A DNA stretch of 64,000 bases from Thermoflexus hugenholtzii JAD2 (GTDB lineage: Bacteria > Chloroflexota > Anaerolineae > Thermoflexales > Thermoflexaceae). The translations under genes were made by a program, and so were the position numbers. Of the stretch, positions 11,910-60,570 are shown one piece after another. Within the stretch, counting starts at the first letter, position 1. Every line of letters begins with the position of its first letter. Below the pieces are notes generated by a model. That model saw nothing but the letters and a program-made list of their open reading frames with translations, made no database searches and was not told the DNA's origin. The stretch covers positions 186,001 through 250,000 of the forward strand of contig NZ_FYEK01000003.1 of the NCBI RefSeq assembly GCF_900187885.1, read 5' to 3'.

Positions 11910-14900
11910 GCCGGTGGTGCGATCGGGTTCTGGAAGCCGGGTGGCTGATGGCGGTGGTCATCGCCCCCCTGTTCTTCAACATCTACACCAGTCGGGTCTT
12001 CGAGCCGGACAAGCTCACCCTGGTGCGCTCCATCGCCCTGGTGATGGCGGCTGCCTGGCTGGTCAAGCTGGTCGAGGCCTGGGGGCAGCGGATTCCGCTC
12101 ACCCGGGCCCTTGGCTTCTCCGTGCGAACCCCTCTGGTTCTTCCGGCCCTGGCCTCAGCGGTCGTTTACCTGCTGGCCAGCCTCTTCTCCCTGGTCCCTT
12201 ACACCAGCTTCTTCGGTTCTTACCAGCGGCTGCAGGGGGCTTACAGCTGGCTCGCTTACCTGGTCATCTTCTTCAGCCTTCTGGGGGCCTTGCGCACCCG
12301 GGCCCAGTTCGAGCGGCTGGCCCTCACGATGGTGCTCGTCAGCTTGCCCGTGGCGGTCTACGGCCTGATCCAGCGTTACCGGCTGGATCCCCTGCCCTGG
12401 GGCGGTGATGTCACCAGCCGGGTGGCCTCCCATATGGGAAACGCCATCTTTGTGGCTGCGTATCTCATCATGGCCTTCATGTTCACCCTGGGACGGCTGG
12501 CCGAGACTTTCCATTCCATTCTGACCGCTGAGCCTCCTCGCAACAGCGATGTGGCTCGGGGAGCGATCTATGTCTTCATCGCCACGGCCCAGGCCGCTAC
12601 CATCTACTTCAGCTTCAGCCGGGGCCCCTGGCTGGGGCTGATGGGTGGTTTGTTCCTCTTCCTGGTGCTCTGGCTGGTGATCCGGCGCCAGCGGAAAGGG
12701 CTGTTCGCCGTCCTCGGCCTCTCCGCGCTCGGGTTTCTTTTTCTCATTCTCCTTAATATCCCGAACGGGCCGCTGGAGCCCCTCCGCGGATCCCCCTATA
12801 TCGGCCGGCTGGGCCATATCTTTGAGACCGAGACCGGCACGGGCAAGGTCCGTGTGCTGATCTGGCAGGGCGCGCTCCGGCTGGTGCTTCCCCACGAGCC
12901 GATCCAGGATCCCCAAGGCCGCCCGGATCCCTTTAACCTCCTCCGTCCCCTTATCGGCTATGGGGCCGAGTCCATGTATGTGGCCTACAACCGGTTCTAT
13001 CCGCCGGAGCTGGCGCATTACGAGGCCCGTAATGCCTCCCCGGATCGTTCTCACAATGAGACCTTCGATGCGCTGGTCCATACGGGCCTTCTGGGCTTCC
13101 TGGTTTATCAGTGGCTGTTCTTCTCGCTGTTCGCCTATGGGTTGCGCAGCCTGAACCTGATCCACGGGGGCCGGGATCGGATCCTGCTTCTGGGCCTCTG
13201 GGTGCTCGGGGCTGCGGTGACAGGGCTTTTCTTCGCCTTTCGATTCGGCTGGCACTTCATCGGGGTGGCGATCCCCGCGGGGACGGTGCTGGGGCTTCTG
13301 GTCTACCTGGTGTTTGCCACCCTGCGGGCTTCCGGGGAGCCTCCTATCCAGCATCCCCATCGCTTCATGCTGATCGCCCTGCTCGGGGCGGTCCTGGCCC
13401 ATTACATCGAGATCAACTTTGGCATCGCCATCGCCTCCACCCGCACCTGGTTCTGGGCTTTCGCGGCGATGATCGTCGTCCTCGGGGAGAGCTGGCTGAT
13501 GGAACCTGCCCTGGTGCGCGCTTCCTCCGCGCAACCGGCAATCCCGGCGCGCAAAGGGAAGGGTGCTGCGCGCCGGCCTCGCCGCGAGGAGCCTCTCCCC
13601 TCCCTGTCCCGTCCGTGGTGGCCGATGGTGGCGGCCCTTGGCCTGTTGATGGCCCTGATGCTGAGTTTGCTTTCCTATGAGTTCATCACCAACCAGGGCC
13701 AGCGGCTGGATGTTCTCCCCCTGATCATCACCAGCTTGACTCGTCTTCCTCTACAAGGGAATCGATTCTCTCCGTTCATTCTGGTGATGTTCCTGTTGAC
13801 CGCCGGCCTGGGCGCAGCGCTGGTGCTGGCCGAAGGGATCCGGCGCGAGTGGCTTCCGGCAGCGAAGTGGCCGGTGGCCCTGGGGCTGTATGGGCTGGTG
13901 GCCTTGGGAGGTTGGCTGGGATACACCCTCATCCACGCCGGCGCGTTGGCAGCCCTGATCGCCCGCGCGCCCCAGACTGTGGAGGATGTCCTGCGCCTGG
14001 CGGAGGGCGTGGCGGGCCTGTTCGACGGGCTGGTTCTCTTTCTCTTCGTGGTGCTGGTCCTGCTGGTTTTCCTGATCTCCCGGGAGGAGCCGGAGGCGGG
14101 GGAGCCATCGACCGGATTGGGGTTGCTGATGGCCCCTCCGGCATGGATCGCGGTGGCTCTCCTGGTCTGGACGGTCAACCTGAACCCGATCCGGGCCGAT
14201 GCGATCTACAAGCAGGGCGATCCTTGGGATAAGCAGGGACAGTGGGAGGTGGCCATCCTGCTTTATCGACGGGCCATCGAGTATGCGCCTCGGGAGGATT
14301 TTTACCACCTCTGGCTGGGACGGGCTTTGCTGGAGAAGGCTTCCCGAGCGCCGGAATCGGCCTCCCGGCAGATTCCAGAGGGCGTCTCTTTCGAGCGAGC
14401 TTTTCAAGCGCTCACCCTGGATCAGCTGGTGCGCTTGTCCCGAGGGGATCTTCTGGAGATCACCCGGGCGGTCCTGGAGCGGGCGCGCGATCTGAATCCA
14501 CTGAACACGGATCACACCGCCAACCTGGCGCGGATGCATCGGCGATGGGCCGATCTTCTGCTGGATCCCCGCTATTGTCGGACGCGCATCCATCTTCCGG
14601 AGATGCCGCCGGAGTTCGTCCGGCATGTGGAGCAGGCCAGCCGGTATTACGAGGAGGCGACCCGGCTCAGCCCGAACAATGCGGTTCTGTGGAACGAATG
14701 GGCCAGCGTGGACCTGTATCAGCGAAATGATCTGGATTCCGCCGAGCGCAAGCTGCAGCGCTCTCTGCAGCTGGACGATCGTTTCGATCAGACCTATCAG
14801 CTCTATGGGGATCTTCTGATGGTGCGCAGTGAGGTGGTGGCGGATCCCCAGGTCCAGCGGATGTCCATGGAGCGGGCGGAGGGTTTCTATCGTCGTCTGG

Positions 14901-57856: not shown

Positions 57857-58350
57857 GCACGGGTCCCCGCTGGGCGCTCATCGGCCTCGGAAATCCGATG
57901 CGAAGGGATGATGGAGCAGGCCCGTGGGTGGCCGCGCAGCTTCGAGGAAGGGGCTGGCCGGATCTCCGGATCATCCGGATGGAGCTCCCGGATCCGATGA
58001 TGCTGGCCGAGGCATGGGAGGAGGCGGAGATCGCCTGGATCGTGGACGCGGTGGAGGCCGATGCGCCGCCCGGAACACTCCTTCGGATCCGAGGCGATCG
58101 TCTCCGGACGGATCTCCGTCCGCGCGGGCTCTCCACCCACGGGTTGGATCTGCTGGAAGCGATCGCCCTGGCCCGGACGCTGGGGCCATCCCCCCGACGG
58201 GTGATCCTCTATGGGATCATCGGGGCGGACTTCGGGTTCGGAGAGGGGCTGTCCCCCGCCGTGGAGGCCGGCGCCCGCCGCCTCCTCCGCCGGCTGGAGC
58301 GCCTGATCACCCGGCTGAATAAAATATCCAGCGAGTCCCACTCCGGATGA
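57853..58350 (+). CDS. Hydrogenase maturation endopeptidase (HyaD/HycI family)
   Basis: A 165-residue nickel-dependent C-terminal processing protease. It has the family start LIGLGNPMRRDDGAGPWVA with the metal-binding Asp region, DAVEADAPPGTL and STHGLDLLEAI with the conserved His. It overlaps the alpha-subunit stop (ATGA), which supports a role in cleaving the FLRLELVEE tail. It ends the operon, and the diverged CRISPR repeat lies 22 bases further on. Confidence 0.92.
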   Translation: MSTGPRWALIGLGNPMRRDDGAGPWVAAQLRGRGWPDLRIIRMELPDPMMLAEAWEEAEIAWIVDAVEADAPPGTLLRIRGDRLRTDLRPRGLSTHGLDLLEAIALARTLGPSPRRVILYGIIGADFGFGEGLSPAVEAGARRLLRRLERLITRLNKISSESHSG

Positions 58351-58372
58351 GATCATCTCCCACAAATGGTGC

Positions 58373-58409
58373 CTTGCAGCGCCGAGGGCCGCTTTCAGGG
58401 GATTGCGGA
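58373..58409 (+). repeat. Isolated diverged CRISPR repeat (R0)
   Basis: A 37-base copy of the array repeat with 31 identities, in the same orientation, 455 bases before the first true repeat and 22 bases after the hydrogenase operon. Differences are at repeat positions 8, 15, 16, 20, 36 and 37. No second repeat follows at spacer distance. On the opposite strand it would be an anti-repeat to the crRNA. Confidence 0.7.
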
Positions 58410-58536
58410 TTGGGTTACTTTGTCCATCATTTTCTCCACCCGGATTTACCCGCTGCCCCGCGCGCCGGCGACGCATCCGGCGCATCGGCCCGTCCTCCCT
58501 CTGAGAGGACCCGAACGTTTGGGCGATCTAAACAGT

Positions 58537-58579
58537 CCGCGAATCCCCTTATCCCCGCAAAACCCGGGGGGATTCGCGG
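58537..58579. repeat. Leader hairpin 1
   Basis: CCGCGAATCCCC (58537-58548) pairs with GGGGATTCGCGG (58568-58579). Confidence 0.55.
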
Positions 58580-58681
58580 AAATTGATGAAAACCAACCGA
58601 AAGGGACACCCATATATCCGGTCCCGAGTCCCCCGATCCGCCAGATATGGGGGTTCCCCAGAGGGGCATCGGGGCGGGTTT

Positions 58682-58724
58682 CCGCGAATCGCCCGGAAAG
58701 CCGATTTCCGGGGGGGATTCGCGG
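58682..58724. repeat. Leader hairpin 2, same arms as hairpin 1
   Basis: CCGCGAATC (58682-58690) pairs with GATTCGCGG (58716-58724). The same-span repeat of arms 145 bases after hairpin 1 makes chance unlikely. Confidence 0.5.
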
Positions 58725-58750
58725 CCTCGACGATGGCTTGGGAAACATCC

Positions 58751-58779
58751 TTGACAAACCGACGAGAAAGTGGTAAAAA
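58751..58779 (+). promoter_or_regulatory. CRISPR array promoter
   Basis: TTGACA (58751-58756) and TAAAAA (58774-58779) are 17 bases apart and about 86 bases before the first repeat. A perfect -35 in a GC-rich genome supports transcription on plus. Confidence 0.6.
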
Positions 58780-58864
58780 TAGAGCCAGAAGCCGGAAGGG
58801 GATAAGCGGACCGGAGGATCCGGCTCATAAAGGGGAACCCTCAACGGAAAGAGGCTTCGGGGCC

Positions 58865-59735
58865 CTTGCAGTGCCGAGACCCGTTTTCAGGGGATTGCGA
58901 CGCGGGATCCCCGGGGGCGCCGAAGCGATGCCGGCCCGCAAACTTGCAGTGCCGAGACCCGTTTTCAGGGGATTGCGACGCTGACTTTGGCCACAGGTCG
59001 ATTTGTCTCCATTCGGATATTCTTGCAGTGCCGAGACCCGTTTTCAGGGGATTGCGACTTGGTGGTGGGGCTGATGTCCAGCTCCCGCAGCGAACTTCTT
59101 GCAGTGCCGAGACCCGTTTTCAGGGGATTGCGACGGGGTCCGGTTGCGGATCATGGATTCCTCCCCTCCTTCAGGATCTCCTTGCAGTGCCGAGACCCGT
59201 TTTCAGGGGATTGCGACCCATTTTATGGAGGAGTTCGATCGCGCGCTCTCCGGCAATCTTGCAGTGCCGAGACCCGTTTTCAGGGGATTGCGACCTACGC
59301 CTGTTCGAATCTGCGCTTTATGAATTGAGCCGAGTGGTCTTGCAGTGCCGAGACCCGTTTTCAGGGGATTGCGACGGCGCTCCTTCCGAACCGCTTCGGC
59401 GGCGAGATAATCTCCCTTGCAGTGCCGAGACCCGTTTTCAGGGGATTGCGACACAGTCATTTGATTTGCCCGATTCCTCTTTGAGCAGAGACCTCTTGCA
59501 GTGCCGAGACCCGTTTTCAGGGGATTGCGACGCGGCCCAGCGAATGATATCGGCTGGGATGTTTCCTTCTTGCAGTGCCGAGACCCGTTTTCAGGGGATT
59601 GCAACGTCGGGGCGATCTGTCGGGTCGCCCTCACCCGTTTTCAGAGGATTGCGAAGTGGACCTCTTCTCCCGGGCGTTGAATCTCATTGGGGGTCATCCT
59701 TGCAGTGCCGAGACCCGTTTTCAGGGGATCGCAAC
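58865..59735 (+). CRISPR. CRISPR array, twelve repeats of 37 bp
   Basis: Repeat unit begins CTTGCAGTGCCGAGACCC and ends TTTTCAGGGGATTGCGAC. Repeats start at 58865, 58943, 59022, 59098, 59181, 59258, 59339, 59416, 59495, 59569, about 59619 and 59699. The first nine are identical. The tenth has one change (GCAAC end). The eleventh has lost its 5' part and is preceded by only 13 bases of spacer. The twelfth has two changes. Intact spacers are 37-46 bases. The repeat carries a short CCC/GGG stem and an ATTGCGAC 3' end, typical of type I or III systems. No cas gene lies in the window. The last repeats decay away from the leader. Confidence 0.96.
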
Positions 59736-59775
59736 TCCCTCCTTTCACCCCGATCGGCTGGAACGCATCGCTCGG

Positions 59776-60570
59776 ATGGAAGCGGGGCACTTCTGGTTTG
59801 TCGGGCGCCGGGCTATCCTCCAGCACTGGCTGAGACGGATCGCCCTCCCGGCGGAGGGGCTGGTTCTGGATGCAGGCTGTGGAACCGGGTGGACGGTCCG
59901 CTGGCTGGCCGATCAGGGTTTCCGCGTGATGGGCGTGGATGTGCTGTCGGATGGCCTAAGAGATTTAAAGGCCCGGGCGCCTTCCCTGGCTCTGGTCCAG
60001 GGCGACGCCAGGCGGCTTCCTCTTCGCGCGGGCGGCGTATTCGCAGTCCTGCTGCTGGACGTTCTGGAGCACCTGGAGGATCACGAGGCGCTGCAGGAGG
60101 CGCAGCGCGTGCTGAAGCCCGGGGGATGGGTGCTCCTCTCCGTCCCCGCCTTCCCGTGGCTCTGGAGCGCCCGGGATCGGGAGGCCGGGCATCGCCGGCG
60201 TTACACCCCAATGATGCTTCGAAGCCGCTTGAAGGAAGCAGGATTTCGCATTATAGACATGCGGTTTTACATGTTCCTGCTCTTCCCCCTGATCCTGGCA
60301 AGCCGATGGGCCGGGCGCCACCACCCGGGATTCCAGGGCTTCGAGGAGCGTCCTTCCCGATGGTTGAACCGCCTGCTGCTCCAGGTGGTGCGCCTGGAAG
60401 TCGCCATGGGGCGCTGGATACGATGGCCCTGGGGTTCAACCCTGCTCGCGCTGGCGCGCAAGGATCCCCTTTGCCAGAGTCGGAACCCCGGGTTGGATGG
60501 GGCATCGCCTCAGGCGGGCGAAGATGCAGGCGCCCCTGAACCTCCCTCATCAAAGGCCGGCGCACCATGA
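59776..60570 (+). CDS. Class I SAM-dependent methyltransferase, N-terminus possibly clipped by the CRISPR array
   Basis: A protein of at least 264 residues. SAM motif I is LVLDAGCGTGWTVRWLAD with acidic GVDVLS, followed by QGDARRLPL, LLLDVLEHLEDHE and LKPGGWVLLSVPAFPWLW, and a C-terminal region with two hydrophobic stretches. The family normally has about 25 residues before the HFWFVGRR motif. Matching sequence (HPDRLERIARMEAGHFWF) extends upstream of the ATG at 59776 to within a few codons of the last repeat at 59735, with no ATG or ribosome site there. The true start may lie in or be removed by the array. It overlaps the aldolase gene by four bases. Confidence 0.75.
   Translation: MEAGHFWFVGRRAILQHWLRRIALPAEGLVLDAGCGTGWTVRWLADQGFRVMGVDVLSDGLRDLKARAPSLALVQGDARRLPLRAGGVFAVLLLDVLEHLEDHEALQEAQRVLKPGGWVLLSVPAFPWLWSARDREAGHRRRYTPMMLRSRLKEAGFRIIDMRFYMFLLFPLILASRWAGRHHPGFQGFEERPSRWLNRLLLQVVRLEVAMGRWIRWPWGSTLLALARKDPLCQSRNPGLDGASPQAGEDAGAPEPPSSKAGAP

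Follow-up and report, generated by a model that had tools for sequence, protein, structure and literature searches.

A solitary diverged CRISPR repeat in Thermoflexus hugenholtzii JAD2 as a probable relic of an array upstream of a type III-A cas operon

Background

A single diverged copy of a CRISPR repeat, here called R0, stands alone behind a hydrogenase gene cluster and ahead of the leader of a CRISPR array in the window, that is, the whole stretch of 64,000 nucleotides of Thermoflexus hugenholtzii JAD2 DNA analysed here (contig NZ_FYEK01000003.1, positions 186,001 to 250,000). How did one repeat come to lie outside the array, and does it have a function there? A sequence-only reading of the window had offered three possibilities: a remnant left by an earlier array, the repeat of a CreA-type, crRNA-like regulatory RNA, or an anti-repeat. 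We compared the locus with the other CRISPR-cas loci of this genome and with other genomes of the genus.

Results and Discussion

Sequence and position of the solitary repeat

R0 has the sequence CTTGCAGCGCCGAGGGCCGCTTTCAGGGGATTGCGGA and the array repeat has the sequence CTTGCAGTGCCGAGACCCGTTTTCAGGGGATTGCGAC; the two align on the same strand without gaps and are identical at 31 of 37 positions, whereas Markov simulations that kept the dinucleotide content of the window scored no better than 24/37 against the repeat at any of 7.7 million positions. The earlier claim of a solitary, full-length diverged repeat of 37 bases in the orientation of the array was thus borne out. The distance of 455 bases that had been given between R0 and the leader is correct as a figure, but it is counted to the first array repeat at 58865, and the leader and a cas2 remnant lie inside that span. 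R0 begins 22 bases past the stop codon of a hydrogenase maturation protease gene, in the sense orientation. When a 33-base pattern was searched with up to three mismatches allowed, R0 itself was the only hit in this genome, and the eight other genomes of the genus gave no hit; such a lack of conservation in close relatives is one half of what the sequence-only reading had named as evidence against its proposal.

At 37 °C the predicted fold energy is -11.5 kcal/mol for R0 and -12.0 kcal/mol for the array repeat, values similar enough that R0 could still be processed by Cas6; the two are less alike at 65 °C. Six of the eight bases of the presumed crRNA tag are kept. R0 is similar to the worn end repeats of other arrays and differs from the last repeat of the window array at eight positions. 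We also considered R0 as an orthologue of the terminal repeat at C27 of the same genome, with which it shares three changes (positions 8, 15 and 37), but the two have no common flank and this candidate was rejected.

An empty site in relatives and a severed methyltransferase gene

The junction at which R0 is found is intact elsewhere in the genus. In five genomes (G001, G002, G004, G006 and G008), a methyltransferase (MTase) gene begins a few bases past the protease gene, and no repeat, leader or array is present at this protease-MTase junction. The region of the protease gene in the window matches the DNA of G004 and G006 at 93% identity as far as 58329, and the homology with G001 stops at 58369 and restarts at 59736, directly behind the last repeat. 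The intervening island of about 1.36 kb runs from R0, three unmatched bases past the homologous host sequence, to the last repeat (59735), and by this comparison it is specific to this Thermoflexus lineage. The island cuts the MTase gene after the second codon, and R0 begins four bases past the start codon (Table 1). Codon counts compared in the relatives indicate that roughly 7-10 host bases were apparently lost at the site; a target-site duplication was sought at the island edges, but none was recognisable and the host loss fits the alignment better. A complete cas locus at this site, which would represent an intermediate, was not found in nine genomes of the genus.

Note that the MTase body lies in an open frame fused to the array end (59575-60570). 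Transcription from the leader would pass through the array into the MTase operon, and if Cas6 cut within the last repeat, the mRNA of the operon could begin there.

Table 1. Features of the island and its host flanks (positions in the window)
Feature	Position	Strand	Comparison or assignment
Left host flank: hydrogenase maturation protease gene, with which the hydrogenase cluster ends	57871-58350	+	NCBIfam TIGR00072, 108 bits
Start of the severed MTase gene (ATGGTGC)	58366-58372	+	Aligned with the intact junctions of five relatives in the genus
R0, the diverged single repeat at the left edge of the island	58373-58409	+	31/37 against the array repeat
Unmatched 26 bases, perhaps a truncated spacer or array trailer	58410-58435	+	No match above shuffled controls
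Remnant of the cas2 3' end, truncated, with a 2-base deletion	58436-58531	+	86/96 against the cas2 gene at ~781 kb of G004:C1
CRISPR leader, 'alpha' type	about 58532-58864	+	About 88% identical to the G004 780k leader over the whole length
CRISPR array, 12 repeats of 37 nt	58865-59735	+	Eleventh repeat (59619) degenerate, half-destroyed
MTase gene body, joined directly to the last array repeat	59736-60570	+	Pfam Methyltransf_11/23/25; homologous to G001/G002 from 59736

Contents of the island

The 26 bases directly behind R0 showed no match above shuffled controls in ten CRISPR-bearing loci of the genus, and their derivation from the trailer or a spacer of another array among these was rejected. 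The cas2 remnant that follows them is identical to the cas2 gene of the genome's own C27 locus at 77 of 96 positions, and its frame is shifted by the deletion. The G004 gene used as the reference was assigned to Cas2 (Pfam, TIGR01573) and stands directly behind cas1. Together, the cas2 tail and the leader correspond at about 88% identity to the end of a type III-A locus in G004, another Thermoflexus, where cas2, leader and array follow one another. The leaders of C27 and C18 in the same genome and of the G004 1835k array form a second type, to which the window leader is far less similar (57-81% identity by bin in the case of C27). A promoter scan gave a sigma-70-like match inside the window leader at 58751-58780. 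No significant spacer common to the window array and the other arrays examined was found.

Palindromic elements like GTAGGGGCGACCCGTCGGGTCGCCCCTAC were observed inside or just behind the array ends of several genomes (window 59604-59640, the array ends of L024 and L022, L082 at 9650 and L083 at 2061), and the variant in the window occupies the place where the repeat at 59619 has its 5' half destroyed.

Regulatory or cis-acting functions of R0

If R0 were the repeat part of a crRNA-like regulator of the CreA/CreR type, the bases following it would guide a Cas complex to a promoter. CreTA, which has been described for type I-B and perhaps other systems, typically has degenerate ectopic repeats (PMC9458426), and R0 is likewise a degenerate repeat outside an array, with its full length, most of the presumed tag and the predicted fold energy at 37 °C kept. 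However, a scan confined to sites of the sigma-70 type detected no promoter-like site in 58150-58750, the first one being the leader promoter that starts at 58751. When the 40 bases that follow R0 were taken as a pseudo-spacer, they gave longest exact matches of 10-12 nt to the genome's own cas loci, within the range of shuffled sequence, and the exact matches to these loci and the window were at chance level; from 58436 these bases enter the cas2 pseudogene. R0 is also not linked to an intact cas operon, its system is III-A, and it is absent from all relatives. We therefore regard a regulator of this type as most improbable, and on the sequences compared a regulatory function of R0 is unsupported. 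An anti-repeat or tracrRNA, which goes with a type II or V effector and RNase III-type processing, would not be expected beside cas genes like those examined here, which are type III-A with Cas6; R0 also has the orientation of the array itself. Solitary repeat units are also known from viral genomes as Racr, often directly behind a predicted promoter (PMC10651486); R0 shares with them the single repeat-like unit but is chromosomal and stands beside its own array.

R0 might instead act in cis, Cas6 cutting it in a readthrough mRNA of the hydrogenase genes and trimming or destabilising the 3' end. Its sense orientation close behind the protease stop codon would suit such a role, as would the presence of a Cas6 gene in the genome, but R0 is not conserved and was placed there by an insertion that the relatives do not have, and we consider this explanation very unlikely.

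Comparison with other CRISPR-cas loci of the genus

The cas genes examined that accompany repeats of the window-array family are type III-A with Cas6. The genome's own type III-A locus at C27 carries Csm1, Csm2, Csm3, Csm4, Cas6 and Cas1, and its cas genes share 92% identity with those of the G004 locus, although the cas2 end, leader and array of the two loci differ. Because of this combination, the window island probably descends from a cas2-leader-array end that once stood at the cas locus of this lineage or of a near relative, whether by copying within the genome or by acquisition from another strain. The C27 leader beside cas2 (L030, oriented ~12100-12730) looks chimeric, with a 5' part resembling the G004 780k leader and a 3' part resembling the C18 and G004 1835k leaders, which suggests recombination between arrays. 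A second cas1 gene of the genome, on a different contig (C71; L033, 6579-7574), is closest to type I-B Cas1 (TIGR03641, 411 bits), and a search of the surrounding 19 kb gave no repeat of the window-array family.

In G001 (C80), a full array that ends in a tail of degenerate repeats lies in direct orientation upstream of cas6, and the cas operon, cas2 and a second leader and array follow. At the corresponding position in G008 (C41), upstream of cas6, there is a clear degenerate repeat (27/37) with two weaker copies at about array spacing, and there are no repeats upstream of cas6 in C27 and G004. Upstream arrays thus do decay in the genus until isolated repeats are left, and the order of repeat, cas genes, cas2, leader and array exists there. 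The window shows the same order as the G001 locus, without cas6 through most of cas2.

R0 as a relic of an upstream array

We consider it likely, with a probability of roughly 0.6, that R0 is a non-functional relic, namely the last repeat of an array that once stood upstream of a type III-A cas operon, in a locus now lying inside the MTase gene with the intervening cas genes lost. The ancestral layout would have been, in one orientation, an array, cas6 and the following genes through cas1 and cas2, a leader and a second array. A type III-A locus of this kind, or a piece of one, would have come to lie inside the MTase gene behind the hydrogenase genes. Before or after landing, everything from R0 to the last ~96 bases of cas2 would have been lost, presumably by deletion, and the leader and the downstream array would have stayed. 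Both look as if type III-A proteins encoded at other loci of this genome could use them.

The proposal of the sequence-only reading that R0 is a relic of an older array is supported by its place at the left edge of a lineage-specific island, near a cas2 remnant: its similarity to the repeat is well above chance, and the remains that adjoin it (cas2 fragment, leader and array) are those of a CRISPR-cas locus. R0 has its full length and only point mutations, lies close to a CRISPR locus and is oriented as the array is; in these respects it is like the degenerate terminal or trailer repeats of decayed arrays, such as those upstream of cas6 in G008 and behind arrays of G001 and G008, but it differs from them in lying upstream of a leader, with a cas2 pseudogene between, at the edge of a lineage-specific insertion. 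The remaining island is like other orphan (cas-less) arrays in having a leader and an array without adjacent cas genes, and in that its repeats are close matches to those of an intact locus at another place in the genome; it differs in that the cas2 stub betrays its origin and that a gene is interrupted. Against the relic reading, the nine genomes yielded no intermediate at this site, the predicted fold energy of R0 at 37 °C leaves room for processing by Cas6, the 26 bases after R0 match nothing and no second repeat is detectable in the sequence next to it, and both ends of the island fall at repeat boundaries, which simple insertion and deletion do not predict.

Flush repeat edges of the island

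The flush edges may be due to chance or to the movement of a repeat-bounded unit. In the latter case, the truncated cas2, leader and array would have been excised or copied with a repeat at each end, by recombination between repeats or a reaction of the Cas1-Cas2 type, and joined into a chromosome break, R0 being the left terminus. The left edge at R0, with three unmatched bases between, and the right edge at the last repeat would follow directly, and arrays have been gained elsewhere too, since the site of the C18 array is empty in G001 and G008, and arrays at different G001/G008 loci have identical terminal spacers and seem to have been copied around. The apparent loss of host bases at the site, in place of a target-site duplication, speaks against such a unit, as do the eight differences between R0 and the last repeat and the lack of a spacer common to the window array and any other array examined. 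We also know of no established mechanism for relocating repeat-bounded units of this size. On balance this explanation is unlikely, and it is doubtful indeed that leader-array units can in general relocate as pieces with a repeat at either end, by recombination or Cas1-Cas2 chemistry that depends on the repeats, with R0 as a left terminus.

The C18 array (L031, 3640-5780) lies between two genes whose homologues in G001 and G008 stand only about 100-180 bases apart, and is, as far as these sequences indicate, another lineage-specific array gain. The arrays of L082 (G008:C7) and of L083, L084 and L086 (G001) lie at different loci, yet their terminal spacers (54 and 43 nt) are identical and they have degenerate repeats at their ends in common, suggesting that arrays were copied between loci.

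Conclusions

With R0 read as the relic of an upstream array, the comparison with the empty site shows a way in which an array linked to cas genes can give rise to one without them, the traces being a cas2 stub and a single worn repeat. Degenerate repeats that stand alone near an array should therefore not be taken for regulatory RNAs without further evidence. Should a mechanism lie behind the flush repeat ends of the island, it would bear on the spread of orphan arrays within genomes.
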